From Thalassovita aquimarina (lineage in GTDB: Bacteria > Pseudomonadota > Alphaproteobacteria > Rhodobacterales > Rhodobacteraceae), in NCBI RefSeq assembly GCF_018219815.1, contig NZ_JADMKU010000004.1, forward strand, positions 62,001 through 126,000: DNA of 64,000 bases. The letters run 5' to 3'. The translations under genes were made by a program, and so were the position numbers. Below are positions 9,166 through 63,320 of this stretch, one piece after another. Each line of letters opens with the position of its first letter. Positions within the stretch are counted from its first letter, which is position 1. The notes below the pieces were generated by a model that was not told where the DNA came from, searched no databases, and saw only the letters and a program-made list of their open reading frames with translations.

Positions 9166-9190
9166 TCCGGGCGCGCGGCGCCCGCCACAC

Positions 9191-10234: not shown

Positions 10235-10267
10235 ATCAGATAACTCCTTGGTTGGCACTCTCGGCGA

Positions 10268-11023: not shown

Positions 11024-11107
11024 GTTCTGCACCCTCCCAAGGCCGCCCTGCGGTCGCACAGCGCGCATCTGACGGACCTGTCCGGGTGACATCCGGCGCC
11101 GCGACGC

Positions 11108-11119
11108 ATTTGATCAAAT
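11108..11119. promoter_or_regulatory. 12-bp perfect palindrome ATTTGATCAAAT
   Basis: Seen directly. It is a short perfect inverted repeat in the divergent control region. It resembles an FNR half-site pair without the usual four-base spacer, so it is not a normal FNR box. It may be a second operator. Confidence 0.35.
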
Positions 11120-11153
11120 CCTGACTTGACTTGCGGCAAAAATCAACACAACG

Positions 11154-11171
11154 ATTGAATGATCATTCAAT
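11154..11171. promoter_or_regulatory. 18-bp perfect palindrome ATTGAATGATCATTCAAT, probable operator
   Basis: Seen directly: nine bases mirrored exactly with no spacer. The size and TGAATGATCATTCA core are typical of TetR- or similar dimeric repressor operators. It lies about 130 nt before the bicupin gene and 185 nt before the TMADH-like pair, so one bound dimer could affect both. The cognate regulator is unknown; the adjacent GlxA-type protein normally uses non-palindromic sites. Confidence 0.55.
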
Positions 11172-11355
11172 TGCTAGAGTGCAGAAGCGATTATTGTCCA
11201 AATGGCATTCGTTCCGCGACAGCAGCGCCTTGCAGCGCCGGACCGGCATGACGGAAGGAATTTCCGGCGCCATTTCAGGGGCCTGAGACCGGACCCGACC
11301 GCCCAAGGCCCCTTCTTGTAACCTTCTGACGCCGCCGTAAAACAAAAGGACCGAC

Positions 11356-13413: not shown

Positions 13414-13434
13414 TCCGCAGGAAAGGAACGAAAA

Positions 13435-47713: not shown

Positions 47714-48763
47714 CTAGCGCACAGTGCCTTTTTCCCCCGTCCGGGTGGGTACCAGCGCCCGCACCAGATCTTTCATATGCAGAATACCGACATCTTCGCC
47801 GTTTTTCTGCACCTTGAAGTTATGCGTCGTGTCGCCGCCAGACAGTTCGATCAGCTTTTCGAGGTTGTCGTTCACGTCCACGACGCCGGCAAACGCGGTT
47901 TCCCCGTTCAGCGGCGACATGACAGAACGCACGCGCAGCACACGCGCGCGGTTGATGTCGCTGACGAAGTCCTCAATGTAGGGATCGTTCGGATTGAGCA
48001 GGATATGCTGCGGTTCGCCCTGCTGCACCACGTAGCCGTCCTTCAGGATCACGAGGTGATCGGCCAGCTTCAGCGCCTCGTCCAGATCGTGGGTGATGAA
48101 GACGACGGTTTTCTGCAATTCGTTTTGCAGTTCCAGAAGCAGATCCTGCATATCGGTACGGATCAACGGGTCGAGCGCGGAAAATGCTTCGTCCATCAGC
48201 ATGATATCGCTGTCCGAAGCCAGCGCCCGGGCGATCCCCACCCGTTGCTGCATGCCGCCCGAAAGCTGGTGCGGATAGTGGTCTTCGTACCCATCCAGCC
48301 CAACCCGCTGCAGCCACGGCCTGCCATGGCTTTCCGCCGTGGTCTCGTCCTCGCCGCGCACCAGGCGCGACATGCCCGCGTTCTGCAGCACGGTGCGGTG
48401 CGGCAGCAGCGCGAATTTCTGGAACACCATCGACATCTTTTCGCGGCGCAACCGGCGCAGCTGTTGTTCGTCATAGTCCAGCACGTTCTCGCCGTCGACG
48501 ATGACCTCGCCGGTGGTCGGTTCGATCAGCCGGTTCAGGTGGCGGATGAGGGTTGATTTGCCCGACCCCGACAGCCCCATGATCACCGTGATCTCTCCGG
48601 CCTGCATGTCGACATTGATGTCCTGCAGGCCCAGCACGTGGTTGTAGGTATCCAGCAGCTCGGGCTTGCCCATGCCGCCATGGACATGCGGCAGCATCGC
48701 TTGGGGATTCGATCCGAAGATCTTGTACAGTCCGCGGATCGAGACTTTGGGTCCGTTGCTCAT
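47714..48763 (-). CDS. proV: Glycine betaine/proline-type ABC transporter ATP-binding protein
   Basis: The protein has 349 residues from the ATG at 48763, preceded by AGGAGAGG; an upstream in-frame start is less likely. Walker A is MGLSGSGKSTLIRHLNRLIE, a signature segment specific to the ProV/OpuAA family. The ABC signature is LSGGMQQRVGIARAL and Walker B is IMLMDEAFSALDP. A C-terminal CBS-like regulatory region (LRVRSVMSPLNGETAFAGVV) follows. It powers uptake of glycine betaine, proline betaine or related quaternary amines and is the last gene of the minus-strand proX-proW-proV operon. Confidence 0.93.
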   Translation of the reverse strand: MSNGPKVSIRGLYKIFGSNPQAMLPHVHGGMGKPELLDTYNHVLGLQDINVDMQAGEITVIMGLSGSGKSTLIRHLNRLIEPTTGEVIVDGENVLDYDEQQLRRLRREKMSMVFQKFALLPHRTVLQNAGMSRLVRGEDETTAESHGRPWLQRVGLDGYEDHYPHQLSGGMQQRVGIARALASDSDIMLMDEAFSALDPLIRTDMQDLLLELQNELQKTVVFITHDLDEALKLADHLVILKDGYVVQQGEPQHILLNPNDPYIEDFVSDINRARVLRVRSVMSPLNGETAFAGVVDVNDNLEKLIELSGGDTTHNFKVQKNGEDVGILHMKDLVRALVPTRTGEKGTVR

Positions 48764-48773
48764 GTCCCTCTCC

Positions 48774-49823
48774 TTACTGTTTCTGGGTGACGTTGATGCG
48801 ACCAAGCGATGCCTTGGTCACCCGGTCGAGAAGAATCGCCAGAAGCACGATGCCGAAGCCCGACACCAGACCGACGCCTAGTTCCAAATTGCGGATACCG
48901 CGCAGAACCAGCACACCCAGACCGGGGGCCGATACCAGGGACGCGATCACGACCATTGCCAGGCTCATCATGATGGTCTGGTTCACGCCGGCCATGATGT
49001 TGGGCATTGCCAGCGGGATTTGAACGCCGAACAGCTTCTGCTTGTCGGTCATGCCGAAAGCGTCGGCGGCTTCGATCACATCCTTGTCGACAAGCCGGAT
49101 GCCCAGGTCGGTCAGCCGGATCACCGGCACGATCGCGTAAAGAATGATCGCGATACCGTAGAGTTTCGATTCCGTCACCGAAAACAGGAAGATCAGCGGG
49201 ATCAGGTACACGAAGGTCGGCAGCGTCTGTAGCATGTCGAGCACCGGCAGGGACACCCTCTGAAAGCCATCGCTGCGGGACATCAAGATGCCTATTGGCA
49301 CCCCGAGCAACACGCTGAAGCCGGTACAGACGAAAATGATCGACAGGGTCTGGATCGCAGGCACGTAATGATCGATGAAGGCCATGAACAGGAATGAAAT
49401 CGCGACAAAGGCGACCAGTTTCCACGATTTCGTCGCGCCCCAGACCGCCAGCAGCAAGAGCGGGATCACGATGAACCACGGCACCGTCTGGAACAGCCAC
49501 AGCGACCCGTCCAGCGCCCAGCTCAGCGGTTGGGAAATCGGGTCCAGCACCACCTTCAGAGGGTCCTTGATCGACAGGAACAGGTTTTCCACCCAAGACG
49601 TCATGTCCCGGGTCCGCGCCACCGAACTGCAGGATTCGTGCAGCACATCGAGCGACGGAAACGGCGCATCCCACAAGGACCCCGCCGCTTCCTCGGCGGC
49701 TCCTTCGACTTTCTTGCCCGATTGCGCCAGCAACTGCGCCATGGTCATCGGACCGCCGGACGCTTCTTGTTCGCACCAGTCTTTCAGGCCCAATGCGCCG
49801 AACAGCCAATCATAAGCGGCCAT
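48774..49823 (-). CDS. proW: Glycine betaine/proline-type ABC transporter permease
   Basis: The protein has 349 residues. A long hydrophilic N-terminal part (about 100 residues) is followed by six to seven membrane spans, as in ProW. The coupling loop is DAFGMTDKQKLFGVQIPLAMPNIMAGVNQTIM. It begins after a pair of stem-loops that separate it from the binding-protein gene and ends 10 nt before proV. The homodimeric channel moves the quaternary amine through the inner membrane. Confidence 0.93.
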   Translation of the reverse strand: MAAYDWLFGALGLKDWCEQEASGGPMTMAQLLAQSGKKVEGAAEEAAGSLWDAPFPSLDVLHESCSSVARTRDMTSWVENLFLSIKDPLKVVLDPISQPLSWALDGSLWLFQTVPWFIVIPLLLLAVWGATKSWKLVAFVAISFLFMAFIDHYVPAIQTLSIIFVCTGFSVLLGVPIGILMSRSDGFQRVSLPVLDMLQTLPTFVYLIPLIFLFSVTESKLYGIAIILYAIVPVIRLTDLGIRLVDKDVIEAADAFGMTDKQKLFGVQIPLAMPNIMAGVNQTIMMSLAMVVIASLVSAPGLGVLVLRGIRNLELGVGLVSGFGIVLLAILLDRVTKASLGRINVTQKQ

Positions 49824-49850
49824 CTACTATCCCCTTGTTGTTCATTCTTG

Positions 49851-49896
49851 GCGGGGCCTCCCCCGCAGAAGCGAAGGGCGCCCACCGGGCGCCCTT
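49851..49896 (-). other. Two intercistronic stem-loops between proX and proW
   Basis: On the minus strand, right after proX, is a perfect 10-bp stem (AAGGGCGCCC / GGGCGCCCTT, 49874-49896, three-base loop) and then a 6-bp stem GCGGGG / CCCCGC (49851-49866). No T-run follows either. Such hairpins often protect the upstream part of the messenger, giving more binding protein than permease. Confidence 0.65.
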
Positions 49897-49909
49897 GTGT
49901 CTTTGTCGT

Positions 49910-50887
49910 TTACTTCAGAAGCGCTGCGAGCTTTTCCTTGGCCGCGTCATCCAGCCAAGCGCCCCAGACATCAGGCTTGCTGGTCAGGAAGTAGACCGCC
50001 GCTTCCTCGGTCGAGGCGGTATTGGCTTCTTTCCACGCCAGGATGTCGTTCATCTGCGCGTTGGTGAAGGACAGGTTCTTCATGAACGCAGCTTCGGCGG
50101 GATGCGTGTCCTTGAATTCGGCGGTCACGACCGTTTTGACCGGGCTGACCGGATATTCCGATTTCCCGACCCCACGATTGGGGCATTCGGGGTCCGAGTC
50201 ACAGGCGTGGACTTCGGCGTTGTAGTCGCCAAGGTCGATCTTCACCATCGGGTATTTGCCCAGGATCGCAGTCGGACCCCAGTAATATCCGAACCACGGT
50301 TCCTTGTTTTCATAGGCCGCCGCGATCGACGAGGCGAGGGTTTCGCCCGAACCGTGCTGGAACACCTCGATACCGGCATCGACCACGCCGAAGGCCTTGG
50401 TTTTCGACGCGTTGGCGCGCTGACAGCCCCAGCCTTCGGGACACTGGTGGAAACGGTTTCCGATCAGGTCGGGATTGGCCAGGATGCCTTCCAGCGTGCC
50501 GGCTTCGGGATGTTCGGCGACGATGTAATCGGGCACCCACCAGCCTTCGACACCGCCATCGGACAGTACGTCGGTCAGGGTGCTGATCTTGCCTTCGGAT
50601 TCCAGTTTCTCATAGGACGGCGCACCGTTGATCCACAGTTCGGTCACGATATCGGGTTCGCCAGTTTCCGCCACCGAGGCCAGCGCCGGAACGGTCGAGG
50701 ACGGCACCATCTCGATGCTGCAACCATAGCCCTGTTCCAGAATGAACTTGGCCACGCCCGAGACGACCTGGCTCGACGCCCAGTTCATTTCGGTCATGGT
50801 GACTTCGCCGCAACTGGCCGACGCTGCGCCGGCGGACAGGGCGATGGCGGTCGCAGCGACCCCGCTCTTGAGTAGATTATTTGACAT
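49910..50887 (-). CDS. proX: Glycine betaine-type ABC transporter substrate-binding protein
   Basis: The protein has 325 residues from the ATG at 50887, which has a near-ideal AGGAGG. A signal peptide (LLKSGVAATAIALSAGAASA) precedes the mature start near residue 25. It belongs to the OpuAC/ProX family. Aromatic residues suited to hold a trimethylammonium group are seen at Trp36, Trp85, Trp116-Trp117, Trp198 and Trp203; that they form the cation-pi box is inference. Cysteines in QCPEGWGCQ and ACDSDPECP could form disulphides. Fits uptake of a betaine for the demethylation operon on the other side of the TetR gene. Confidence 0.9.
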   Translation of the reverse strand: MSNNLLKSGVAATAIALSAGAASASCGEVTMTEMNWASSQVVSGVAKFILEQGYGCSIEMVPSSTVPALASVAETGEPDIVTELWINGAPSYEKLESEGKISTLTDVLSDGGVEGWWVPDYIVAEHPEAGTLEGILANPDLIGNRFHQCPEGWGCQRANASKTKAFGVVDAGIEVFQHGSGETLASSIAAAYENKEPWFGYYWGPTAILGKYPMVKIDLGDYNAEVHACDSDPECPNRGVGKSEYPVSPVKTVVTAEFKDTHPAEAAFMKNLSFTNAQMNDILAWKEANTASTEEAAVYFLTSKPDVWGAWLDDAAKEKLAALLK

Positions 50888-51481
50888 CAGGATACCTCCT
50901 ATTTGGATGTAATTATTGAATTTTTCTTGACTATTTCCCAAGCCGCAGTTTCGGCAGGGCATTATCGCAGTCGATTGGATCGGGAGTAATCAAGCAGTAG
51001 CAGCGAAATCGCCGACGTCGCGTCGACGCTTGGCCCCACGATACCCACGCCCGGGAAATTCGGCCATTTCAGCCGCCAGACTGGGGAGAACGCTATTTGG
51101 TCGCTGTCTCGCACTTCGGCTTAAGGGAATAGCATTTGATTCAGGGGTTCAAGGGCATCGATGTAAAAAGTCCTTTCCCTTCCCCGAGGTAAGGCACCCA
51201 TCCCCGGCACCTGGCCCACGACATTCATGCTGTCCCTTGCGGCGAGGACGCAGCCATCACAACAAGCACCTTGATGTCCGTATCCTCGCCCTCCTTTGCC
51301 ATTCGACCATGCGCGGCAACCAAAACCTGACAGAGCAGTTTTCACATATCCGCCGGATCAGGCTGCATCATTGGACACCCCTGTTCAGGGCACTTTACGG
51401 CAGATAATGGAACAGAAGCGACATAGCTTGTCAAATAGCGACCTGGCCACCGCCTGACAAGCAAGCGCGGCGGCCCCGGCG
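50888..51481. other. 594-nt intergenic region between proX and tetR
   Basis: No supported gene. It must contain the proX promoter and the end of the tetR transcript. A 16-mer TGGACA-CCCC-TGTTCA at 51372-51387 resembles the operators upstream of tetR (listed separately). Nothing else was recognised. Confidence 0.45.
51372..51387. promoter_or_regulatory. Operator-like 16-mer downstream of tetR
   Basis: TGGACA-CCCC-TGTTCA, whose reverse complement is TGAACA-GGGG-TGTCCA, the same form as the copy at 52233-52248. It lies 95 nt beyond the tetR stop and about 485 nt upstream of proX, so it may put the transporter under the same regulator. Confidence 0.45.
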
Positions 51482-52153
51482 TCACCCGGATCCGACGGAC
51501 AGGCAGAAAGCCTTGTGATCCTCGATGTCTTCCGGCTCGGGGGCGACACCGGTGAAACCGACAAGGTACTGTTCCAGCCGGTCGATACGCGCCGACATTG
51601 GTTCGCGCACTTCCAGCGCATGATACCCAAGCTGCATGTAATAGAGAATCCGAGCCCGCGCATCCGCGTCGTCCGGGGCATAGCCATACCGTTCGAACAT
51701 CTCTTGCACCGCCTGCAGCCGGGTGCTGTCGGCCGCGTCGATGCGCTGGCGCACCGATCCGCTGCGCCGCGACCATTCGCGGACCGCGAAATCCAGCCCC
51801 TGATCGAACAGGTCCGGATCGATGAAACAGCGGAAGAAATTGCACACGGCGGCGTTGATGCTGCGGGCGGGCATCCGGCAATGGCTGACGATGGTGGCGG
51901 TATTGCGCGCTTCCCAATCGTCAAGCAGCGCCTCGAGCAGGTGTTTGCGGCTCTTGAAATACCAGTAGAAACTGGATCGCGAAACGCCCAGCCGCTGACC
52001 GATGGTCAGCACCTTGACCTCCCCCACCCCGTCACTGACCAGGATGTCGCGCGCCACGTTGAGCCAGTCTTCGCGGGTGACCTTGATGTTCCCCACCAGT
52101 TCCGGCTTGTCCGGATCTTCACGATGCAACGGCACCGGCTGGGATTTGGGCAT
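51482..52153 (-). CDS. TetR/AcrR-family regulator of the demethylation operon
   Basis: The protein has 223 residues from the ATG at 52153, with GGAGG six bases upstream. The helix-turn-helix is seen as DWLNVARDILVSDGVGEVKV then IGQRLGVSRSSFYWYFKSRKH. The rest is a helical ligand domain without clear specificity. It is divergent from the DMGDH-mttB-sox operon, with two operator-like 16-mers in the gap. Its role is like that of BetI in choline metabolism (inference). Confidence 0.9.
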   Translation of the reverse strand: MPKSQPVPLHREDPDKPELVGNIKVTREDWLNVARDILVSDGVGEVKVLTIGQRLGVSRSSFYWYFKSRKHLLEALLDDWEARNTATIVSHCRMPARSINAAVCNFFRCFIDPDLFDQGLDFAVREWSRRSGSVRQRIDAADSTRLQAVQEMFERYGYAPDDADARARILYYMQLGYHALEVREPMSARIDRLEQYLVGFTGVAPEPEDIEDHKAFCLSVGSG

Positions 52154-52232
52154 TCGACACCTCCGATGGTAAAGACACACCCGCCTTTTCGGCTTGTCGG
52201 ACGGGCGGGCAGGTCACCGAATTTTGCACAAC

Positions 52233-52280
52233 TGAACAGAAATGTCCAAAGCCGTTCCGAGTACTGGACAGTTTTGTCTA
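52233..52280. promoter_or_regulatory. Two operator-like 16-mers in the tetR/DMGDH-like divergent region
   Basis: TGAACA-GAAA-TGTCCA (52233-52248) and TGGACA-GTTT-TGTCTA (52265-52280). Their centres are 32 bp apart, three helical turns, so two dimers could bind the same face. The second overlaps the perfect 10-mer TGTCTAGACA (52275-52284). The operon start codon is 56 nt downstream. Confidence 0.65.
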
Positions 52281-52335
52281 GACAGGCAAAAAACACGCGC
52301 TTACCGTCGCGGTGAATCAACCTTTCGGAGGGATC

Positions 52336-54741
52336 ATGAAGTCGCATTATCGTGTCGTGGTGATCGGCGGCGGCATCGTGGGGACGTCGGTTCTCTATCA
52401 CCTAGCCAAATTCGGCTGGCCCGACGTCTGCCTGATCGAACGCAAGGTCCTGACCGCCGGGTCCAGCTGGCACGCCGCCGGCGGGGTGCACGCGCTGAAC
52501 GCCGATCCGAACATCGCGGCACTGCAGGGTTACACGATCGACCTTCTGTCCGAGATCGAAAAGGAATCGGGCCAATCGATCGGCATGCACATGACCGGCG
52601 GCATGACGCTGGCCTCCACGCCGGAGCGTTGGGAATGGCTGCAATCGGCCTATCGCGTGTTCCAGACCATCGGCATCGAGGATTGCCGCCTGATCAGCGC
52701 CGAGGAAGCCGCCGCGCTGAACCCGCTGATGAACCCAGAAGGGGTGCAAGGCGCGCTCTGGGCCGACCGCGAAGGCTATGTCGACACCACCGGCACCGTG
52801 CACGCCTATGCCGGGGCGGCCAAGAAACGCGGCGCGACGGTGATCGAAAACAACCGGGTGCTGGAGCTCCACGAATTTCCCGACGGCTGGCAGGTGGTGA
52901 CCGAAAAGGGCATCATCACATGCGAACACGTGGTCAATGCCGCCGGGCTCTGGGCCAAGCAGGTCGGGCGCATGGCCGGGATCGAATTGCCGGTGTCGCC
53001 CTTGAACCACCACTACCTGATCACCGATACCATCCCCGAGGTCGCGGCATTGGACGAAGAACTGCCGATGATCATGGACCCCGAAGGCTTCACCTATATG
53101 CGGCAGGACCAGAAAGGGATGCTGCTGGGCATCTACGAGGCCGATCACGACCACTGGATGATGGACGGCGCGCCGTGGGATTACGGGTTCGAATTGCAGC
53201 AGGAAGATATCGGCCGGATCGAAAACGAATTGCTGAAGGGATTCGAACGCTACCCCTGCCTGAACGACGTCGGGATCAAGACATGGGTCAACGGCGCCTT
53301 CACCTTCTCGCCCGACGGCAACCCCTTGGTCGGGCCGGTGCGCGGCAAGCGCAATTACTGGTGCGCCTGCGCCGTGATGGCCGGATTCCTGCAAGGCGGC
53401 GGGGTCGGCAAATCGCTGGCCGAATGGATCATCCACGGCGAACCCGAGGCCGATATCTTCGGCATGGACGTGGCGCGCTACGGCGATTACGCCCAGAACA
53501 AGCGGTACATCAAGGGAACCACCGGGCAATTCTATTCCCGCCGCTTCGTGATGTCCTATCCCAACGAACAGCTTCCCGCGGGACGGCCAGCGCGTATGGC
53601 GCCGAGCTATTCCGACATGACGGCGGCGGGTTGCAGATGGGGCGTCAGCTACGGGCTGGAAGTGCCGCTCTACTTCGCCCCGCAAGGCTTCGAGGAAGCC
53701 CCGACGCTGAAACGGTCGAACGCCTTCGACATCGTGGGCGCGGAATGCAGGGCCACGCGCGACGCGGCCGGGCTGATCGACATCTCGGGCTATTCCCGGT
53801 TCGAAATCTGCGGACCGAATGCCGAAGCCTGGCTCGATCACCTGCTGGCCTGCAAACTGCCACCGGCGGGCCGCGCCAAACTGGCCCCGATGCTGTCCCC
53901 CGAAGGCAAGCTGAAAGGCGACCTGACCGTGTTCAACTGGGGCGACGGGACGTGGTGGCTGATGGGATCCTATTACCTGCGTGAATGGCACATGCGCTGG
54001 TTCACCGATCACATGGTCGACGGGATTACCGTGCGCGATATCGGCGACGGCACCGTCGGGTTTTCCATCGCCGGGCCGAAAAGCCTTGCCATCCTCCAAA
54101 GCCTGACCGACGGACCCATCGCCGAGTTGCCACTGATGGGCTGCGGGACCTTCGATATCGGGCTGACCCGGGCGCGTGTGGGACGGCTGTCGGTGACCGG
54201 CGAAAGGGGGTATGAAATCCACTGCTCGGCCGCCGATCACATCGCCTTGCGCCGGGCGCTGTTGCGGGCCGGGGCCGATCACGGGTTGCGCGAGGTCGGC
54301 TTCAACGCGGTGCTGTCGATGCGGCTGGAAAAAAGCTTCGGCATCTGGTCGGCGGAATTCACCCAAGGCTATACGGCGGGACAAACCGGGCTGGACCGCT
54401 GGATCGCCTGGGACAAGGGCGATTTCATCGGACGCGATGCGGCCCTGACAGAACGCGGCGGACCGGGCCCGGCGCAGGTTCTGGCGACGCTCGAGGTCGG
54501 CGCGGTTGACGCCGATTGCAGCGGCTACGAACCCGTCTGGCAAGGCGGCGAACGTGTCGGCTTCGTCACCTCGGGCGGCTATGGTCATTCGATCGGAAAA
54601 TCGCTGGCCATGGCGATGATCGATCGCGACAAGGCGGCCGAAGGGACCGAACTGACGGTACATGTGGTCGGCGTCGAACGCCCCGCGACGGTGATCGCGC
54701 CGTCGCCCTATGACCCCAGCGGCAAAGCGATGAGGGCGTGA
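52336..54741 (+). CDS. DMGDH-like FAD enzyme with GcvT folate domain, operon lead gene
   Basis: The protein has 801 residues from the ATG at 52336 with CGGAGGGA upstream. N-terminal FAD motif VVIGGGIVGTSVLYHLAKFG; His46 in SSWHAAGG is equivalent to the covalent flavin histidine of DMGDH. The C-terminal half is a GcvT-type folate domain that ends GYGHSIGKSLAMAMIDRDKA. It should oxidise a tertiary or secondary N-methyl amine and give methylene-THF. Directly coupled to mttB (stop and start share bases at 54739-54743). A likely substrate is dimethylglycine or the product of MttB. Confidence 0.88.
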   Translation: MKSHYRVVVIGGGIVGTSVLYHLAKFGWPDVCLIERKVLTAGSSWHAAGGVHALNADPNIAALQGYTIDLLSEIEKESGQSIGMHMTGGMTLASTPERWEWLQSAYRVFQTIGIEDCRLISAEEAAALNPLMNPEGVQGALWADREGYVDTTGTVHAYAGAAKKRGATVIENNRVLELHEFPDGWQVVTEKGIITCEHVVNAAGLWAKQVGRMAGIELPVSPLNHHYLITDTIPEVAALDEELPMIMDPEGFTYMRQDQKGMLLGIYEADHDHWMMDGAPWDYGFELQQEDIGRIENELLKGFERYPCLNDVGIKTWVNGAFTFSPDGNPLVGPVRGKRNYWCACAVMAGFLQGGGVGKSLAEWIIHGEPEADIFGMDVARYGDYAQNKRYIKGTTGQFYSRRFVMSYPNEQLPAGRPARMAPSYSDMTAAGCRWGVSYGLEVPLYFAPQGFEEAPTLKRSNAFDIVGAECRATRDAAGLIDISGYSRFEICGPNAEAWLDHLLACKLPPAGRAKLAPMLSPEGKLKGDLTVFNWGDGTWWLMGSYYLREWHMRWFTDHMVDGITVRDIGDGTVGFSIAGPKSLAILQSLTDGPIAELPLMGCGTFDIGLTRARVGRLSVTGERGYEIHCSAADHIALRRALLRAGADHGLREVGFNAVLSMRLEKSFGIWSAEFTQGYTAGQTGLDRWIAWDKGDFIGRDAALTERGGPGPAQVLATLEVGAVDADCSGYEPVWQGGERVGFVTSGGYGHSIGKSLAMAMIDRDKAAEGTELTVHVVGVERPATVIAPSPYDPSGKAMRA

Positions 54742-56285
54742 TGGATCAGCAGGCAAACTCCCGGCCTCGCCGCCGTGGCCGCGACCGCGGCGCCAAGGCG
54801 ACCCCGCAGCGGCAGGTGAATTACCGCCAGCTGCGCAATCCCTTCCCGCCGATGCCCGCCTTTTCCGAAGACCGCATCGCCGCGATCCACCACACCGCCC
54901 TGCGGGTGCTGGAAGAACAGGGGATGAAGGTGTTGCTGCCGCAGGCGCGGGCACTGTTCCGGCAGGCCGGGGCGCGGGTCGACGAGGCGTCCGGGATGGT
55001 GTTCGTCGGCCGCGATATCGTCGAGGCGGCGCTCGCCTCCGCGCCGCGTTCGATCCTGTGCCGCGCCGGGACGCGCGACCGCGACGTGTTGCTGGATCCC
55101 GGTGCACTGACCTTCCTGCCGGGATCGGGCACGCCGCATGCCACTGACCTGAAACGTGGCCGCCGCCCCGGCACCGGGCGGGATTTCCGCGAACTGGTGC
55201 AGATCGCCCAGCATTTCGACGTCATGCACATGCTGCCGCCGATGGTCGAACCGCAGGACATCCCGACCCAGACGCGCCATCTGTTCACCATGGAGGCGCA
55301 GTTGACGCTCAGCGACAAGCTGCCCTTTGTCTACGCCCGCGGTACCCCGCAGGTCGAAGACAGTTTTGAAATGCTGCACGATTTCCGCGGCCTGTCGGAC
55401 GCCGAATTTCGGGCCGCCCCCCACTGCTTCACCATCATCAACACAAATTCGCCGCGCGTTCTGGATATCCCGATGGCGCAGGGGCTGATCGATTTCGCCC
55501 GGTTCGGGCAGGTGTCGATCGTCACCCCGTTCACGCTGATGGGGGCGATGGCGCCGATCACCGTGGCCGGCGCGGTGATGCTGTCGCATGCCGAAGCGCT
55601 GGCGGCGATCACCCTGACCCAGCTGGCGAAACCCGGTGCGCCGGTGCTCTATGGCACGTTCACCTCGAACGTGGACATGAAATCGGGGGCGCCCGCCTTC
55701 GGCACACCGGAACATTTCAAGGCCTCGCTGGCGGCGGGGCAACTGGCGCGGCTGATCGGGCTGCCGTGGCGTTGCGCCGGCGGATCGGCAGCCAATCTCA
55801 ACGATGCGCAGGCGGCCAACGAAACCCAGTTCGCGCTCTGGGGCAGCCTGATGGCGGGGGCGACCGTGATCCTGCATTCCGCCGGTTGGCTGGAGGGCGG
55901 GTTGACCCTATCGTATGAAAAGATGATCACCGATATGGAAGTGCTTCAGATGGTGGCGGAAATGTGCGTCGCGGCGGCGGCCGAAGACAGCGACATCGCC
56001 TTCGACGCGCTGGCCGAAGTGGAACCTGCCGGCCATTTCTTCGGCGCTGCCCACACGTTGGAACGCTACCAGACCGAGTTCTATGACCCGCTGGTCGCGG
56101 ACTGGTCCAACTTCGGCACATGGACCGAAAAGGGTGAACGCAGCGCCAGCGAGCGGGCCAGCGATATCTGGCAGAACATCCTGTCCGAGGATGCCCGCCC
56201 CCCGGTCGATGGCGACCGGTTCGAGGCGATGCAGACCTTCATCGCCAAGCGAACCGCCGCCGGCGGCGCCCCACCGGAGAGCTGA
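54741..56285 (+). CDS. MttB-superfamily (trimethylamine methyltransferase-like) protein, non-pyrrolysine
   Basis: The protein has 514 residues. The central TIM-barrel-like part has family blocks seen here as GSGTPHATDLKRGRRPGTGR, PMVEPQDIP, TPFTLMGAMAPITVAGAVML and ANLNDAQAANETQFALWGSL, and the C-terminal HTLERYQTEFYDPLVADWSN. Archaeal MttB has pyrrolysine at an amber codon; this gene has no in-frame TAG, so it belongs with the non-pyrrolysine group, which includes betaine methyltransferases such as MtgB. Those enzymes need a corrinoid protein, and none is encoded in this window. The first 25 residues are unusually rich in Arg. It may remove the first methyl group of a quaternary amine. Confidence 0.87.
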   Translation: MDQQANSRPRRRGRDRGAKATPQRQVNYRQLRNPFPPMPAFSEDRIAAIHHTALRVLEEQGMKVLLPQARALFRQAGARVDEASGMVFVGRDIVEAALASAPRSILCRAGTRDRDVLLDPGALTFLPGSGTPHATDLKRGRRPGTGRDFRELVQIAQHFDVMHMLPPMVEPQDIPTQTRHLFTMEAQLTLSDKLPFVYARGTPQVEDSFEMLHDFRGLSDAEFRAAPHCFTIINTNSPRVLDIPMAQGLIDFARFGQVSIVTPFTLMGAMAPITVAGAVMLSHAEALAAITLTQLAKPGAPVLYGTFTSNVDMKSGAPAFGTPEHFKASLAAGQLARLIGLPWRCAGGSAANLNDAQAANETQFALWGSLMAGATVILHSAGWLEGGLTLSYEKMITDMEVLQMVAEMCVAAAAEDSDIAFDALAEVEPAGHFFGAAHTLERYQTEFYDPLVADWSNFGTWTEKGERSASERASDIWQNILSEDARPPVDGDRFEAMQTFIAKRTAAGGAPPES

Positions 56286-56286
56286 C

Positions 56287-57540
56287 ATGGCGAAACGCTA
56301 TTCCGCATGGAACCTCTTTCTTCAGGGGATGCGCGGCCACAAGGGCTGGGGCCAGGCCTGGCGTTCGCCCGAGCCGAAGAAACGCTATGACGTGATCGTC
56401 ATCGGCGGCGGTGGGCACGGATTGGCCACCGCTTACTACCTCGCGAAGAAACACGGCATCACCAATGTGGCGGTGCTGGAAAAGGGATGGCTGGGCGGCG
56501 GCAACACGGGCCGCAACACCACGGTGATCCGGTCGAACTACTTCTATCCCGAAAGCGTCGCGCTTTATGACCTGTCGGTGCGGCTCTACGAGGGACTGTC
56601 GCGGGATCTGAATTACAACGTGATGTTTTCCCAGCGCGGCGTCACCAACCTGTGCCATTCCGAACCGGAAATGGAAATGGCCGCGCGGCTGGTCAACGCC
56701 ATGCGCCTCAATGGCACCGACGCCGAATTGCTGGACGCCGATCAGCTGCGCAAATTCATCCCCGCGCTGAACATCCGCCCCGATGCCCGCCTGCCGATCC
56801 ACGGCGCCGTGTTGCAGCCGCGCGGCGGGACCGGGCGGCACGACGCGGTGGCCTGGGGCTTTGCCCGCGCCGCCGATGCCGCCGGGGTCGACATCATCCA
56901 GAATTGCGAAGTCTTGGATTTCCTGACCGAAGGCGGGCGCTGTGTCGGCGTGTCGACCAACCGGGGCGATATCCACGCCGGTCGCGTCGGCGCGGCGGTG
57001 GCCGGGCATTCCTCGGTGCTGGCGGAAAAGGCAGGCGTCGGGTTGCCGATCAATTCCTACGCGCTGCAGGCTTTCGTGTCGGAACCGCTGAAACCGGTGC
57101 TGGACACGGTACTGATTTCCCCGATCACCGGCACCTATGTCAGCCAGTCAGACAAGGGCGGATTGGTGATCGGCGGCGCGCTGGACCGGGTGCCGTCCTA
57201 TGGCCAGCGCGGCAACCTGCCGGTGCAGGAAGCCGTGATGGCGGGGCTGACCGAAATGCTGCCGATGCTGTCCAAGGTCAAGATCGTGCGCCACTGGGCC
57301 GGGATCGTCGATGTGACCCCGGACAGTTCCCCGATCCTAGGCCCCTCGGCGCTGCAGGGGCTCTATTTCAACTTCGGCTGGGGCACCGGCGGGTTCAAGG
57401 CGATCCCCGCCGGCGGCTATCTGTTCGCCCATATCCTTGCAACCGGCAGCCATCACGACATCAGCCGCCCGTTCGATCAAAACCGCTTCACCACCGGGCG
57501 CTTGATCGACGAAGGCGCAGCGTCCGGCATCGCGCATTAG
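56287..57540 (+). CDS. soxB: Sarcosine oxidase beta subunit
   Basis: The protein has 417 residues and carries the sarcosine-oxidising FAD site of heterotetrameric sarcosine oxidase. The dinucleotide motif is VIVIGGGGHGLATAYYLAKK (residues 36-55). His185 in GRHDAVAWGFARAAD corresponds to the histidine that holds FMN covalently in the Corynebacterium enzyme. The C-terminal block is WAGIVDVTPDSSPILGP then NFGWGTGGFKAIPAGG. It starts one base after the mttB stop. The genes follow the usual order B-D-A-G. Confidence 0.94.
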   Translation: MAKRYSAWNLFLQGMRGHKGWGQAWRSPEPKKRYDVIVIGGGGHGLATAYYLAKKHGITNVAVLEKGWLGGGNTGRNTTVIRSNYFYPESVALYDLSVRLYEGLSRDLNYNVMFSQRGVTNLCHSEPEMEMAARLVNAMRLNGTDAELLDADQLRKFIPALNIRPDARLPIHGAVLQPRGGTGRHDAVAWGFARAADAAGVDIIQNCEVLDFLTEGGRCVGVSTNRGDIHAGRVGAAVAGHSSVLAEKAGVGLPINSYALQAFVSEPLKPVLDTVLISPITGTYVSQSDKGGLVIGGALDRVPSYGQRGNLPVQEAVMAGLTEMLPMLSKVKIVRHWAGIVDVTPDSSPILGPSALQGLYFNFGWGTGGFKAIPAGGYLFAHILATGSHHDISRPFDQNRFTTGRLIDEGAASGIAH

Positions 57541-57548
57541 GAGGTTTC

Positions 57549-57815
57549 ATGCAGCTTTTCCCCTGCCCTTTCTGCGGCCCGCGCGACGAACACGAATTCC
57601 ATTTCGCCGGGGAGGCCGGCAAGGCGCGCCCCGACACCACACGCACCGTCAGCCCGGAGGGCTGGGCGCATTACCTGAACGATCAGCGCAACGAAAAAGG
57701 CCGCGTGCGCGAGGTCTGGATGCACCTGACCTGTTCCGAGCTTTTCGCGATGGAACGCGACAGCGTGACGATGGAGGTTCTGTCGTCCGCCCCGTTGCGG
57801 GAGGATGCGCAATGA
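57549..57815 (+). CDS. soxD: Sarcosine oxidase delta subunit
   Basis: The protein has 88 residues with a strong AGGAGG. It is the small zinc-binding subunit. Zinc ligands are Cys6 and Cys9 (CPFCG), His59 and Cys62 (MHLTC). In the family the last pair is usually His-x3-Cys, here His-x2-Cys, so one residue is missing, and Trp-Phe after the Cys is Leu-Phe. The rest of the subunit is normal (FHFAGEAGKARPD). It ends with an ATGA overlap into soxA. Confidence 0.9.
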   Translation: MQLFPCPFCGPRDEHEFHFAGEAGKARPDTTRTVSPEGWAHYLNDQRNEKGRVREVWMHLTCSELFAMERDSVTMEVLSSAPLREDAQ

Positions 57816-60610
57816 CTTCCCGCCGCACCGCCGAGGGCGGTCTGATCGACCGGTCGCGCCCGCTGCAATTCAGCTTCGACGGCAAGTCGTATCAGGGTTT
57901 CAAAGGCGACACACTGGTGTCGGCGCTCTTGGCCAACGGCGTGCGGGTCATGGGGCGCAGTTTCAAATATCACCGCCCGCGTGGACCGTGGGGGGCGTGG
58001 ATCGAAGATCCGAACGCGGTCTTCAACGTGACCCTGGATGGTGCTGAACTCCCCAACTGCCTGGGCGCCGCGACGATGCTGGAAACGGGCATGGAAGCGC
58101 GGTCTGTGAACGCCTTTCCCTCGGCCCGGTTCGATCTGAAGGGCGGGCTGGACCTTTTGCATCGCTGGCTTGGCGCGGGATTTTATTACAAGACCTTCAT
58201 CTGGCCCGACTGGCACCTGTTCGAACCGATGATCCGCCGCATGGCCGGGCTTGGCGAACTTAACACCGACCTTATCGACGGCTATGCCTCGGACCAGTTG
58301 CACGATCATTGCGAGGTTCTGATCGTCGGCGGCGGTGCAGCAGGGCTGGCGGTCGCACGCGCGGCAGCGGAGGCCGGTCAGGACGTGGTTCTGGTCGACG
58401 ACCACGACGTCGCGGGCGGCAGGCTCTATCAGCTCGACAGCGTCGAAGGACAAACGCCGCGCGATTGGGTCGACGATCAACTGGCGGCGATCGAAGCCGC
58501 AGGCGGCCGGGTGATGACCGCGACCACCGCCTTCGGCGTCTTCGACCACCGCTTGGTGGGGCTAGCGCAGCAGGGCGCGTTCGGCACCGCGCCGCGGCTG
58601 TGGCGGATACGGGCGGACCGGATCGTTCTGGCCAGCGGTGCGATCGACCGCCCCATCACCTTCGCCGACAATGACCGGCCCGGCGTGATGTCGTTGGACG
58701 CGGCCTGCGAATGGCTGGCGCGGTATGGCGTGTTGGCCGGGCGGGACATCGCGGTGTTGTCCAACAACAGCTTTGCCGCCCCCGCCGTGCGGATGCTGGC
58801 GCGGGCCGGGGCCAATGTCACCGAAATCGACCCAACCGACGGCGCGATCCGCGCCTTGGGCGGCAAGCGCCTGAAAGGGGTCGAAGTGGCGGGCAAACGC
58901 CACCCCGCCGACACCGTTCTGGTGTCGGGCGGCATGACCCCGCTGGTGCACCTGTGGCGCCATGCCGGCGGCAAGCTGGACTGGTGCGAGCAGCGACAGG
59001 CTTTCCTGCCCGGCGCGACACCAGAAGGCATGGCGGCTATCGGGGCGGCCAACGGCAGCTTCGACCTGGATCATGCGCTGGCCGAAGCCCGCGCGGTGGC
59101 CCGGCATGAACCCCGCCCTGACGGGACGGGCACCTACCGGCTTACCCCGCTCTGGCCGAAACCGGGGTCAAAAGGGCGGCAATGGATCGATTTCCAGCAT
59201 GACGTGACGCTGAAGGATATCGAACTGGCGGCGCGTGAAAACTATGTCTCGGTCGAGCATCTGAAACGCTACACCACGCTGGGCATGGCGCCGGATCAGG
59301 GCAAAACCTCGAATATGGCGGGGCTAGCGGCGATGGCGGCGATACAGGGCCGGGCGATTCCCGAGGTCGGCACCACCACTTTCCGCCCGCCCTTCGTGCC
59401 GCAGCCCATCGCGCTTTATTCCGGCCCCCATGCCGGGCAGCTTTATCATCCGCTGAAACGGCTGACGCTGGAAGCGCAGCACCGCGCGGCGAATGCGGCC
59501 CTGGGTGAATATGGCGGCTGGCTGCGCCCCGGCTGGTACGGGTCGGGCGATCCGAAATTCCATATCCGCGACGAGGTTGTGACAGCGCGCAAGGTGGCGG
59601 GCATCCTCGACGCCTCGCCGTTGGGCAAGATCGAGGTGATAGGGCCGGATGCCGAAAGGTTCGTCGATTTCATCTACTACAACACCGTCTCCACCCTGAA
59701 GCCGGGTCAAATCCGCTATGGTTTCATGCTGACGGAACGGGGCCATATCATGGATGACGGGGTCATCGCGCGGCTGGACCGGAACCGGTTCCTGATTTCC
59801 TGCTCCTCCTCCCATACCGATCACGTTCGAGCGCATCTCGAAACCTGGCGGCAGGACGGCAACGACCCCGACCGGATTTTCATCCACGACCTGACGCAAG
59901 CCTGGTCAACCGTCACCGTGACAGGCCCCAAGGCGCGCGACATCGTGGCGGCGCTGGACATACCGCTGGACCTGTCCGCAGGGGCTTTTCCTCATATGAC
60001 ACTGCACTACAGCAGCTTCGACGGCACCCCGGTGCGCATCGCGCGGGTCAGTTTCACTGGCGATCTGAGTTACGAGATCTCGATCCGCAGCAGCCGTGCC
60101 GCGGACCTGTGGCAGGCGCTTGCCGCTGCAGGCGAAAAGCTGGGGGCATGCCCGGTCGGGATCGAGGCGCTGTCAGTGCTGCGCGCCGAAAAGGGATACA
60201 TCCTGATCGGCAAGGATACCGAGGGCGAAACCATGCCGCATGACCTTGGCTTCGGCATCCCGCGACAGAAGAAAAGGGCCGCCTTTGTCGGCGACCGCAG
60301 CCTGCACATGGAGGGCGCCAACCGCGACGACCGCAAGCAGCTGGTCGGGTTCAGCGTGGAACCGGGCGCCCCGGCCCTGCCCGTTGGCGCGCATCTGGTC
60401 GGCGAAGGGGAACGGCCCCGCTCGCAAGGCTATGTCACCACCAGCCATGACAGCACGACGCTGGGTCACCCCATCGCACTTGGCCTGCTGGAACGCGGGG
60501 CCGACCGGATCGGCGAACGCGTCACCGCCTGGCACCAGGGACAGCGATTCACCGCGACGATCTGCGCCCCCTGTTTTTTCGATGCGGAAGGAGAGCGCCT
60601 GCATGCGTGA
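57812..60610 (+). CDS. soxA: Sarcosine oxidase alpha subunit
   Basis: The protein has 932 residues. The N-terminal ferredoxin-like domain without cysteines (PLQFSFDGKSYQGFKGDTLV, then GRSFKYHRPRGP) is followed by an NAD-binding domain with LIVGGGAAGLAVARAAAEAG at about residue 169 and a C-terminal GcvT-like folate domain (GYILIGKDTEGETMPHDLGF). It binds NAD and THF and receives formaldehyde equivalents from the beta subunit. It overlaps soxD and soxG. Slightly shorter than the usual 970-1000 residues. Confidence 0.94.
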   Translation: MTSRRTAEGGLIDRSRPLQFSFDGKSYQGFKGDTLVSALLANGVRVMGRSFKYHRPRGPWGAWIEDPNAVFNVTLDGAELPNCLGAATMLETGMEARSVNAFPSARFDLKGGLDLLHRWLGAGFYYKTFIWPDWHLFEPMIRRMAGLGELNTDLIDGYASDQLHDHCEVLIVGGGAAGLAVARAAAEAGQDVVLVDDHDVAGGRLYQLDSVEGQTPRDWVDDQLAAIEAAGGRVMTATTAFGVFDHRLVGLAQQGAFGTAPRLWRIRADRIVLASGAIDRPITFADNDRPGVMSLDAACEWLARYGVLAGRDIAVLSNNSFAAPAVRMLARAGANVTEIDPTDGAIRALGGKRLKGVEVAGKRHPADTVLVSGGMTPLVHLWRHAGGKLDWCEQRQAFLPGATPEGMAAIGAANGSFDLDHALAEARAVARHEPRPDGTGTYRLTPLWPKPGSKGRQWIDFQHDVTLKDIELAARENYVSVEHLKRYTTLGMAPDQGKTSNMAGLAAMAAIQGRAIPEVGTTTFRPPFVPQPIALYSGPHAGQLYHPLKRLTLEAQHRAANAALGEYGGWLRPGWYGSGDPKFHIRDEVVTARKVAGILDASPLGKIEVIGPDAERFVDFIYYNTVSTLKPGQIRYGFMLTERGHIMDDGVIARLDRNRFLISCSSSHTDHVRAHLETWRQDGNDPDRIFIHDLTQAWSTVTVTGPKARDIVAALDIPLDLSAGAFPHMTLHYSSFDGTPVRIARVSFTGDLSYEISIRSSRAADLWQALAAAGEKLGACPVGIEALSVLRAEKGYILIGKDTEGETMPHDLGFGIPRQKKRAAFVGDRSLHMEGANRDDRKQLVGFSVEPGAPALPVGAHLVGEGERPRSQGYVTTSHDSTTLGHPIALGLLERGADRIGERVTAWHQGQRFTATICAPCFFDAEGERLHA

Positions 60611-61109
60611 CGACCGCCACAGATGGGCCGCTCATGACGGCCGATGGCCCCGGTTCGATGCCCAGGGCATTTCCCTTGCAACTACCGAACCGGAGCGCCA
60701 GACGCTGATTTCGGGTCCTTCCATCCTGTCGCATTATCCCGGCGCAATCGAATGGCCGGACATCGCGACCGATGACAGCTATTCACTCTGCCTGCGGCGC
60801 GACCGGATTCTGCGGGTGAACGGGCTGGAGATGCCGGACGGCTGGAACCAGGAACAAGAACAGGCGGTGTCAGACGCAAGCGACGCCTATACCGTCTTCG
60901 ACCTGTCGGGCCCGAAAGCGCTGGACCTGCTGAAACATGGTGCGGAACTCAGCTTGCAGAAACCATCGCGCTCGGTCGCGCGGAATCTGTTCGGTTTTGG
61001 CGTGTTTCTTTACCGCTACGGGGCCGAGGACGGGTATCGGCTACATGTCCCCCGCGCCCAGGCGCACCCCGCCTGGCAGACCCTGACCCGACAGGCGGTC
61101 CGGCTCTGA
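60603..61109 (+). CDS. soxG: Sarcosine oxidase gamma subunit
   Basis: The protein has 168 residues from the ATG at 60603, inside the end of soxA (8-nt overlap). It resembles a single GcvT-like domain: YTVFDLSGPKALDLLKHGAEL in the middle and SRSVARNLFGFGVFLYRYGA near the end. The gamma subunit is the most variable one and this sequence is divergent, but the place in the operon is decisive. It completes the soxBDAG set and is the last gene of the operon. Confidence 0.85.
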   Translation: MRDDRHRWAAHDGRWPRFDAQGISLATTEPERQTLISGPSILSHYPGAIEWPDIATDDSYSLCLRRDRILRVNGLEMPDGWNQEQEQAVSDASDAYTVFDLSGPKALDLLKHGAELSLQKPSRSVARNLFGFGVFLYRYGAEDGYRLHVPRAQAHPAWQTLTRQAVRL

Positions 61110-61298: not shown

Positions 61299-62006
61299 AT
61301 GAGCAGAGACAAATGGAAATCCATCCGGGACGCGATCGAGGACGATATCGCCTCGGGGCAGTTGCAACCGGGTGAACGGCTGCCCACCGAACCGCAACTG
61401 GCCGAACGGCATCAGGCCGGGCGCCATTCGGTCCGCAAGGCGATCGCGGAACTGGCCAAGACCGGCAAGCTGCGCGTCGAACAGGGCCGCGGCACCTTCG
61501 TGGAAACCGCGCCCACGATCGCCTATGCCATCGGCAGGCGCACGAGGCTGCATGCGCAGGGCATTGATGTCAGCGGCGAATTGCTGGGCGCCGAACGGAT
61601 CGCGGCCAGCGGCCGGGTGCAGCATGCGCTGTGGCTGGAACCGGGGGCGCCGGTGATCGAAAGCCGCCGCCTGACCCGCGCCAACAAGGTACCGATCGCG
61701 TTCGGCCGCGCCTATCGCTCGGCCGAACGCTTCCCCGATTTCGTCGAGCGCATGGACCTGCTGGGGTCGGCCACCGAAACCTGGAAATCCTATGGCATCG
61801 CCGACTACCTGCGCGGCGAAACCTCCATCCATGGCAGGCTTGCCCGTCCCGAGGAAGCGCGTCTGCTGAAACAGCACCCCGACCTGCCGGTGATGGTCAT
61901 TCGCGCCGTCGACACGATGATGGACGGCACGCCGCTGAGCTTCAGCGAAGTGATCTGGTCCGCCACGCGGGTGAAATTCACCTTCGAAACCGACGGTGTC
62001 CAGTGA
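61299..62006 (+). CDS. phnF: GntR/HutC-family regulator, PhnF-like
   Basis: The protein has 235 residues. An N-terminal winged helix with WKSIRDAIEDDIASGQLQPG and GRHSVRKAIAELAKTGKLRV is followed by a UTRA ligand-binding domain (FVETAPTIAYAIGRRTRLHA onward) of the PhnF type, regulators of phosphonate use. No phnGHIJKL genes are in the window, but phnM follows. A 22-bp palindrome lies directly before its start. Confidence 0.88.
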   Translation: MSRDKWKSIRDAIEDDIASGQLQPGERLPTEPQLAERHQAGRHSVRKAIAELAKTGKLRVEQGRGTFVETAPTIAYAIGRRTRLHAQGIDVSGELLGAERIAASGRVQHALWLEPGAPVIESRRLTRANKVPIAFGRAYRSAERFPDFVERMDLLGSATETWKSYGIADYLRGETSIHGRLARPEEARLLKQHPDLPVMVIRAVDTMMDGTPLSFSEVIWSATRVKFTFETDGVQ

Positions 62007-62152
62007 TGATCCAATCCCTTCCCGATACCCCGCACGAGGCACTGCCCAGCCCCCTGTTCCGCACCGCCTTGGACGCACGTCTGATCGACAGCGTCATCGG
62101 CCCGACCAAGGATGTCCCCCAGCCAGAGGAGCGCGAAGATGTGGCTGTCTGA
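62006..62152 (+). CDS. 48-residue protein between phnF and phnM, function unknown
   Basis: The ATG shares its A with the phnF stop codon (TGATG at 62004-62008), and the stop lies 14 nt inside phnM. So it is tightly coupled on both sides, which speaks for real translation. The peptide (MIQSLPDTPHEALPSPLF to EEREDVAV) has no signal, membrane segment or motif that I recognise. It may be a true small protein, a coupling leader, or a remnant of a larger phn gene. Confidence 0.45.
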   Translation: MIQSLPDTPHEALPSPLFRTALDARLIDSVIGPTKDVPQPEEREDVAV

Positions 62153-63320
62153 TTTCACCCTCATCCTGCCCGACCGTGTGGTCGATCACGGTTCGATCCG
62201 CATCGAAAACGGCCTGATCGCCGACATCGCGGAAACCCCGGTGCCCGGCGGGCTGCAAGGCCGCGGGCTGCAGATTTTTCCCGGCTTCATCGACATGCAT
62301 GGCGACATGATCGAGGTCGAGATGGAACCGCGGCTGAAGGTCGATTTCCCGATGCAGGTGGCGCTGCCGCATCTCGATGCCCGACTGACGGCCTCGGGCG
62401 TGACCACCGCCTATGCCGCCGTCAGCTTTTCGCGCGGGACGCGGGATGGCGAACGGCGCTTCTTCGAGCATACCAGCGGAACCATCCGCACCCTGCACGC
62501 GCTGCGCGGCGACTGCCGGGTGGATCACCGCATCCATGCCCGGTTCGACATCACCTTCGACAATGCGGTCGCTGTGATTGCCGATCTGATCGCGGCGGGC
62601 ACCGTCGACCTGGTGTCGCTGATGGATCACACGCCGGGTCAGGGGCAGTATCGCGACATCGAACGCCACATCGCACATGTCGCCGCCCATCGTGGCGTTA
62701 GCCAGACCGAAGCGCGGCAGATCGTGACCACCAGGATCGCCGAACGCAGCCGGCCACAGCAGGTCCTGCTGGACAATATGCGCCAGGTGTCCGAGCTATG
62801 CCGGGGCCATGGCGTGCCGTTGGCAAGCCATGATGACGACACCGAGGAAAAGGCCCATCTGATGGCCGAACTGGGGGCTGCCATCGGTGAATTCCCAGTC
62901 ACCCTTGAAGCGGCAAGGGCCACCGCCGACCGGGGCATGATGAACGCGATGGGCGCGCCCAACGCGCTGCGCGGACAAAGCTATTCCGGTAACCTGTCAG
63001 CCCGGTAGGCCCACGCAGAAGGTTTATTGCATATCCTTGCCGCCGATTATCACCCCGGCGCGATCCTGCCTGCGTTCCAGGTCCTTGCCGGGACCGATCC
63101 CAAGGGGCTGGCGGGGGCGGCGGTGCTGGCGACGGCAAACCCGGCCAAGGCGCTTGGGCTGGATGATCGTGGCCGGTTGCAGCCGGGGCTGCGCGCCGAT
63201 CTTGCCGTGGTCGATCCCGCCGGCATGGGGCGGGTGATCGCCAGTTTTTCGCGCGGCGAGGTGATTTTTTCCAACGGATCGCTGCCCGGTCTGGCCGAGC
63301 GCGTTCAGGCGGTGGCCTGA
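62139..63320 (+). pseudogene. phnM: phnM (alpha-D-ribose 1-methylphosphonate 5-triphosphate diphosphatase) with in-frame amber codon
   Basis: The gene reads from the ATG at 62139 (AGAGGAG upstream) as a normal PhnM: amidohydrolase block FPGFIDMHGDMIEVEMEPR (metal His-x-His type), later GVPLASHDDDTEEKAHLM and GAPNALRGQSYSGN. After residue 289 a TAG (63006-63008) interrupts it, and the same frame continues without any shift as AHAEGLLHILAADYHPGAIL to the stop at 63318. Aligned with E. coli PhnM as I recall it, the TAG falls on a Glu, so a single GAG-to-TAG change explains it. The enzyme removes diphosphate in C-P lyase phosphonate breakdown. The metal site of the lost end (SSDYYP-like AADYHP) would be missing from a truncated product. 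Confidence 0.82.

Follow-up and report, generated by a model that had tools for sequence, protein, structure and literature searches.

The stretch of DNA analysed here, which we call the window, comprises 64 kb (C44:62001-126000) of the 4.33-Mb, 67-contig genome of Thalassovita aquimarina. Six plus-strand genes follow one another in the window, with overlaps or gaps of at most 8 bases between neighbours. The first encodes a DMGDH-like flavoprotein (52336-54741 from an ATG, with a GTG at 52312 as alternative start) that carries the full dimethylglycine dehydrogenase domain set of Pfam DAO, FAO_M, GCV_T and GCV_T_C. It is followed by a gene for an MttB-superfamily methyltransferase of a non-pyrrolysine, short-loop branch (54738-56285; PF06253) and by genes for four sarcosine oxidase-type subunits: SoxB, beta type (56287-57540; TIGR01373, 677.3 bits, cut-off 529); SoxD, delta type (57549-57815; TIGR01374, 81.7 bits, below the cut-off of 116.5); SoxA, alpha type with a GCV_T folate domain (57812-60610; TIGR01372, 1044.5 bits, below the cut-off of 1164); and SoxG, the gamma subunit (60603-61109), assigned by position and a weak GCV_T match (30.4 bits). 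Divergent from this operon, on the minus strand, lies a gene for a TetR-family regulator (51482-52153; TetR_N PF00440, 38.9 bits), whose ORF runs from a GTG at 52180 and whose likely start is the ATG at 52153. An ABC importer (47714-50962) is encoded beyond it. The family matches and coordinates bear out the gene content given in an earlier note on this DNA, which had described an operon of DMGDH-like, MttB-family and SoxBDAG genes, nearly all of them coupled, next to a TetR gene. Directly after soxG, a PhnF-like GntR regulator gene and a PhnM-like gene begin (61299-63320); the PhnM-like frame hits a stop near 63007, after which there is a second ORF, an arrangement that may reflect a pseudogene or a fault in the assembly.

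The best PDB matches of the DMGDH-like protein are dimethylglycine dehydrogenases (489 bits to chain 4pab), and it carries the WHAAG motif (residue 53 when numbered from the GTG). In SoxA, Pfam identifies SO_alpha_A3, GCV_T and GCV_T_C domains, and the zinc residues C6, C9, H59 and C62 are present in SoxD; we take these residues and the WHAAG histidine to be functional. The window genes thus share their domain layout, the WHAAG motif and the B-D-A-G order within one operon with known dimethylglycine dehydrogenase and heterotetrameric sarcosine oxidase. An NCBIfam search at E 1e-8 gave no match for SoxG. Because SoxA and SoxD fall under the curated NCBIfam cut-offs and SoxG has only its weak GCV_T match, we regard the set as a divergent SoxBDAG.

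Both enzymes have counterparts elsewhere in the genome. The DMGDH-like protein is 31-33% identical to the four other FAO_M proteins, two of which score higher against dimethylglycine dehydrogenase (557 and 548 bits). Window SoxB is 61-80% identical to nine operon-linked SoxB proteins and 53% identical to the SoxB of the genome's second SoxBDAG set, on contig C67; the operon-linked proteins are 51-55% identical to that C67 SoxB, and the SoxA proteins of the two sets share 38%. By these identities, the window DMGDH-like and Sox proteins are classed as paralogues of the genome's other copies and not as shared enzymes. Among the other FAO_M proteins, C65:38k has 66% and window 881-3331 has 71% identity to the members of a closely spaced pair in R. 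pomeroyi SZCCDBG043 (L172, L169). SPO3400 and SPO3396 have been named as DMG and sarcosine dehydrogenases (PMC4744692), and we take the pair for these two genes by its spacing alone, the assignment of SZCCDBG043 copies to SPO numbers by distance being approximate. The window copy of these two belongs to a second N-methyl-type cluster (881-15495), which holds this DMGDH/SarDH-like gene (71% to L169), an SDR gene, a polyamine-type importer (PotD-like binding protein, the other subunits named by eye), a LuxR-type gene, a GbdR-like AraC regulator (below cut-off), an EutQ-like cupin and two tandem OYE-type flavoproteins; it could be another betaine route.

The window MttB matches PF06253 over positions 1-499 of 500 (664.9 bits, cut-off 25) and is encoded by one of three PF06253 genes in the genome. 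A scan of the gene for an in-frame stop, a sign of pyrrolysine, found none; the protein scores 287 bits against the pyrrolysine-type model TIGR02369, below the cut-off of 525; and X334 of Pyl-MttB 7xcl, which we take to be the catalytic pyrrolysine, aligns to a gap. On these grounds, we class the window MttB as not of the pyrrolysine type. It is 35% identical to the MtgB of the same genome, encoded on contig C11, and reaches 278 bits against 4yyc, presumably a Sinorhizobium meliloti protein, and 264 bits against the chain named glycine betaine methyltransferase (2QNE). The C11 copy reaches 726 and 400 bits, respectively, and is 84% identical to copy L155 of R. pomeroyi SZCCDBG043. Upstream of the mtgB copy, on the opposite strand, each of the two genomes has a gene that by eye resembles a GMP synthase gene; it adjoins the mtgB copy at L155 and is separated from it by two ORFs in L004.

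A maximum-likelihood tree of 48 sequences gave a clade of window-type MttB at 100/100 (22 rows, including L158 of R. pomeroyi) and a separate clade of C11, L155 and 4yyc at 100/97. A branch at 100/100 split the window type from the MtgB-like rows (C11, L155, 4yyc and 2qne), leaving 8 ungrouped rows uncounted. Long branches (L159-L162) and odd composition (2qne, L161) were flagged, none of them inside the window-type or the C11/L155/4yyc clade. The tree places the window MttB outside the MtgB glycine betaine methyltransferase group. An alignment of 127 sequences gives a further distinction: the loop from W344 to D356 has 13 residues in the window MttB, one fewer than in MtgB and Pyl-MttB, a length that is certain even if the exact placement of the gap inside the loop is not. 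The 13-residue loop is shared by 97/97 window-type gene calls (92 distinct), 16/16 sister-group sequences, L156, L158 and L159; 14 residues are found in C11, C15, L155, L157, L160-L162, 2qne, 4yyc and 7xcl. Within the loop, a lysine common to C11, L155, 2qne, 4yyc and 7xcl is Asn353 in the window protein. The shortened loop argues for a different substrate pocket, and not for any given substrate. In the AlphaFold model, pLDDT is below 50 at 348-359, so that the loop is poorly modelled and the model too weak to judge the pocket.

Other MttB groups share the short loop and have different neighbours (L156, L159, the sister group; L192, L193, L175-L191), among them a PehA/sulfatase-like enzyme and a GbdR-like regulator. 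At L194 of R. pomeroyi SZCCDBG043, a relative of the C15 MttB of T. aquimarina lies beside a TetR-like gene and two OYE-type flavoprotein genes, a pairing of MttB with another flavoprotein class. A Mesorhizobium mttB knock-out has been tested for salt resistance (PMC4302635).

First demethylation of a betaine by an MttB-family enzyme in an aerobe is already published, for R. pomeroyi MtgBCD. In the parts of Mausz et al. (2025, PMC12478193) at hand, R. pomeroyi needs MtgC and MtgD to grow on glycine betaine, which raises two of its PF06253 proteins, and MtgB is proposed as the first enzyme. The same source finds up to seven PF06253 genes in such marine bacteria, with genes for later demethylation steps often near mtgBCD, suggests that additional MtgB-like genes serve other methylated compounds, and counts MtgBCD in only 28/239 genomes with metH.

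Types of MtgB, MtgC, DUF1638, MtgE and MtgD all occur on contig C11 of T. aquimarina. The MtgC-type corrinoid protein gene (C11:198266-198961; best NCBIfam match MtgC NF047996, 194 bits, below the cut-off of 370) adjoins the DUF1638 gene. A gene for an MtgD-type pterin-binding methyltransferase lies at L024:1327-2487 (NF005719, 405.6 bits, cut-off 259), and the MtgE or 'BHMT'-type gene at L016:12354-13451 (NF005718, 613 bits). The ORF before mtgD, in the metF2 position, gave no match in a Pfam search at 1e-5. The genome encodes three PF02574 proteins: MetH, the one of MtgE/'BHMT' type and one that matches homocysteine methyltransferase weakly. A full MetH (L014:10409-14161) coexists here with an MtgC/MtgE split system (L016:9603-13451). 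Matches to PF00848, the ring-hydroxylase domain to which we take GbcA to belong, numbered 0 in the genome at E 0.001; 4/14 control genomes were positive.

These results change the earlier note's account in part. Its module was called likely complete, yet the operon contains neither a corrinoid protein nor a corrinoid:THF methyltransferase gene, the candidates for both being on contig C11. The layout, with a non-pyrrolysine MttB and in a genome with no PF00848 match, suits its inference that a trimethyl compound is taken down to the amino acid. That the window MttB replaces GbcA or BHMT on glycine betaine is not our first choice, because a closer MtgB is encoded on contig C11. The note had also asked whether a GbcAB or BHMT gene elsewhere accounts for betaine use: PF00848 found nothing, as above, and the only gene here named 'BHMT' belongs to a type that has been reinterpreted as MtgE by Mausz et al. 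(PMC12478193).

Relatives of the window MttB with at least 62% identity occur in 54/295 genomes of the family (about one genome per genus, at most 5 candidates scored in each; the 54 were counted by hand from rows). Neighbourhoods were compared in 96 non-redundant loci plus the window; one source of loci was the best 80 of at least 555 candidates and is therefore biased to close relatives. Named holders are mostly Rhodobacteraceae and include Ruegeria, Leisingera, Roseovarius, Tateyamaria and Jannaschia, as well as a MAG of the Granulosicoccaceae, which are gammaproteobacteria. Neighbours were counted by tblastn, because the gene caller missed MttB in L056, L068 and L093. With the window included, the DMGDH-like gene lies immediately 5' of mttB in 79/89 loci with enough upstream sequence, leaving 10/89 where it is not the neighbour, and a TetR homologue is near mttB in 73/89 of the non-redundant loci that extend 2.5 kb or more downstream, leaving 16/89 with no TetR in reach. 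Elsewhere this gene is usually just downstream of mttB; in the window it is divergent from the operon. SoxB is linked in 9/89 loci, again counting the window, and a single-chain FAD oxidase (c3) in 19/89; the two never share a locus, where about two overlaps would be expected, a difference that is not significant.

The gene order that the earlier note proposed to look for in other genomes thus recurs for DMGDH, mttB and TetR, but SoxB joins them in few loci. The conserved core consists of the DMGDH-like gene, MttB, TetR and a palindrome described below, with SoxBDAG in a minority of loci only, and the module is a real, well conserved variant of the route published in 2025. Among the papers listed by searches of the open-access literature, none was on this DMGDH-MttB-TetR module. 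MtgC is present in 51 of the 54 genomes with a window-type MttB; its co-occurrence is uninformative, because it is nearly universal in the family (273/295). One of the three genomes where it was not found is 96% complete. Other neighbours (oligopeptide ABC, branched-chain ABC, RND pump and zinc ABC genes, partly named by eye) seem to reflect species synteny and give no clue to the substrate. A beta-keto-acid cleavage type enzyme (NCBIfam: 3-oxoadipate:acetyl-CoA acetyltransferase) lies near mttB in L058, L070 and L099 only.

The palindrome, TNGACANNNNTGTCNA, was derived from frequent words 5' of the DMGDH start and counted on the same data. It is perfect in 35 of 80 distinct regions upstream of DMGDH and present with at most one mismatch in 58, against an expectation at that tolerance of 0.35 (shuffled regions) or 1.45 (random stretches of the same loci); the remaining 22 regions do not contain it at one mismatch. 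A count over 1.91 Mb from 101 partly redundant loci gives 65 perfect copies, of which 51 precede a DMGDH call, 2 precede mttB and 2 precede other calls at the corresponding position; 5 fall within DMGDH calls, which are probably too long, and 5 within unrelated genes. In the window, five copies occur at no more than one mismatch, and the sole perfect one, TGGACAGTTTTGTCTA at 52265-52280, is the putative operator. A second operator-like copy at 52233-52248, which lies 32 bases away and contains one mismatch, is weak when taken alone. The module is probably under its own TetR switch, with the palindrome as putative operator. Near the importer beyond the TetR gene, the only operator-like site has one mismatch, no better than chance.

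All three importer genes are on the minus strand. The binding protein (49910-50962) scores 425 bits against 7YLE and only 38 bits against the next PDB chain, and 130/204 residues are identical to 7YLE over the two blocks compared. The permease (48774-49823; TIGR03416 228 bits and PRK10952 210 bits, both below cut-off) and the ATPase (47714-48805; TIGR01186 proV, 334.8 bits, cut-off 326.6) would be DmpW and DmpV by position. Li et al. (2023), a paper that names 7YLE, describes DmpX and gives the pocket of the Roseovarius protein as W35, T64, W84, E113, W152, A153, Y200 and W202 (PMC10030565); in 7YLE numbering, seven of these eight residues are identical in the window protein, A153 being G. The importer is consequently predicted, by its binding protein, to be a DMSP importer of the DmpXWV type, with the pocket and the three-gene make-up of that transporter, and the quaternary-amine ProVWX of the earlier note does not hold. 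This likeness belongs to the neighbour at 47714-50962 and not to the demethylation module.

No DmpX importer (binding protein or ATPase at 55% identity or above) was found in any of the 67 further loci whose sequence extends 9 kb or more to each side of mttB, for which reason its position next to the module is probably chance and the binding protein gene adjacent to, and probably outside, the module. With a binding protein of DmpX type and this absence from other window-type loci, we rejected a ProVWX importer as part of the module; among the matches listed for 100 window-type loci, none to ProV, ProW or ProX reached 38%. In some sister-group relatives the link to an importer is real, with a different binding protein: in 2/17 loci (L180, L186), genes for a ProVW-type importer, with ProV at 46-47%, lie no more than about 10 kb from mttB, and the L180 binding protein scores 272 bits against 4xz6 and is hence not DmpX. 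L186 combines a short-loop MttB, TetR, this importer, an SDR, DMGDH (66%) and SoxB (68%) with an enzyme of the beta-keto-acid cleavage type, which passes its cut-off at 512 bits, and a Rieske gene that NCBIfam matches best to GbcA, at a score (155 bits) far short of the cut-off of 670. As a lead only, this set is perhaps for a hydroxylated betaine such as carnitine.

Taking these lines of evidence together, we propose, at about even chances, a TetR-controlled operon that removes the methyl groups one by one from a carboxylated trimethylammonium compound. This would be an amino-acid betaine, and probably one other than glycine betaine. By analogy with MtgBCD, and sharing the MtgC and MtgD of contig C11, the MttB-family enzyme would transfer one methyl group to cob(I)alamin on MtgC, the product of a gene outside the operon, and MtgD would hand it on to tetrahydrofolate. 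The DMGDH-like flavoprotein would then oxidise the N,N-dimethyl product and pass the carbon to THF as methylene-THF. In SoxBDAG-linked loci, the Sox paralogue would take the last methyl group and leave the free amino acid; a single-chain FAD oxidase or general enzymes may substitute for it in other genomes. TetR would bind TNGACA-N4-TGTCNA before the DMGDH gene and act as a repressor in the absence of the compound. The most probable class of substrate is an amino-acid betaine, because the substrates identified for the superfamily, with the exception of phosphocholine, are quaternary amines with a carboxylic acid group (as stated in the portion of PMC12155760 at hand), and DMGDH and Sox enzymes act on N-methyl amino acids.

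The same genes might instead constitute a second, inducible glycine betaine set, with the window MttB, DMGDH and SoxBDAG as isozymes for glycine betaine, dimethylglycine and sarcosine. The 489-bit match of the DMGDH-like protein and a SoxB over its family cut-off are what such a set would contain, and in R. pomeroyi glycine betaine raises the level of two PF06253 proteins; in marine bacteria, genes for later steps are often close to mtgBCD (PMC12478193). The genome, however, already holds a closer MtgB on contig C11, relatives (66%, 71%) of the presumed R. pomeroyi DMG and sarcosine dehydrogenases, a second SoxBDAG and two FAO_M proteins that match dimethylglycine dehydrogenase better (557, 548 bits), and the MttB loop differs; we consider this reading unlikely. 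Less probable again is a mosaic, in which the DMGDH-like and MttB enzymes share one compound and SoxBDAG is a later addition for another, sharing only the transcript. The presence of SoxB in merely 9/89 loci would be explained, but the operon-linked SoxB proteins resemble one another (61-80% to the window) and stand further from the C67 SoxB (51-55%), and the Sox genes of the window are coupled by overlaps.

We give very little credence to the two readings that depart further from betaine demethylation. If the operon acted on DMSP or a related sulfonium imported by the adjacent DmpXWV, the seven pocket residues of the neighbouring binding protein would have a ready explanation; against this, the importer stands beside no other window-type module in the 67 full-flank loci, its sole operator-like site is at chance level, the DMGDH and Sox families work on N-methyl groups, and Li et al., in the part at hand, describe dmpXWV as not colocalised with known DMSP catabolic genes (PMC10030565). 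A short-loop MttB that has given up methyl transfer to a corrinoid for another role, such as binding, sensing or a different transfer, would account for the residue missing at the special position of Pyl-MttB and for Asn353 in place of the conserved lysine. Against it stand a PF06253 match over virtually the whole family model and an alignment to MtgB over residues 36-506, and we regard it as highly improbable.

Extending the amino-acid betaine proposal beyond the window, we suggest tentatively, and at slightly less than even confidence, that the short-loop branch (the window type and its sisters) is a distinct class of corrinoid-dependent methyltransferase in aerobic Rhodobacteraceae, acting on one or more betaines other than glycine betaine through the MtgC/MtgD relay, to which the window type would add its own flavoprotein demethylases and a single TetR switch. 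With this module, one MtgB-like gene, of a kind whose function Mausz et al. left open (PMC12478193), can be linked to a conserved operon, to a regulator and an operator, both predicted, and to a loop mark. If the proposal is true, it adds a vitamin B12-dependent route by which a further dissolved nitrogen compound is used.

That paralogues can differ in their quaternary-amine substrates has a precedent in MtpB, MtcB, MtyB and MthB of the acetogen Eubacterium limosum (PMC8604678, PMC12155760). Desulfitobacterium hafniense MtgB (2QNE) is likewise a non-pyrrolysine member of the MttB superfamily, to which the window protein aligns over residues 36-506 (264 bits); MtgB keeps the loop residue that the window MttB is without. 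R. pomeroyi DSS-3 MtgBCD (PMC12478193) shares with the system described here a PF06253 enzyme in an aerobic marine bacterium, MtgC and MtgD types encoded in the genome, and DMG/sarcosine-type demethylases for the subsequent steps. The window MttB differs in falling outside the MtgB clade, with 35% identity to the genome's own MtgB and a shorter loop, and in having DMGDH and Sox paralogues of its own in the same operon, next to a TetR gene.
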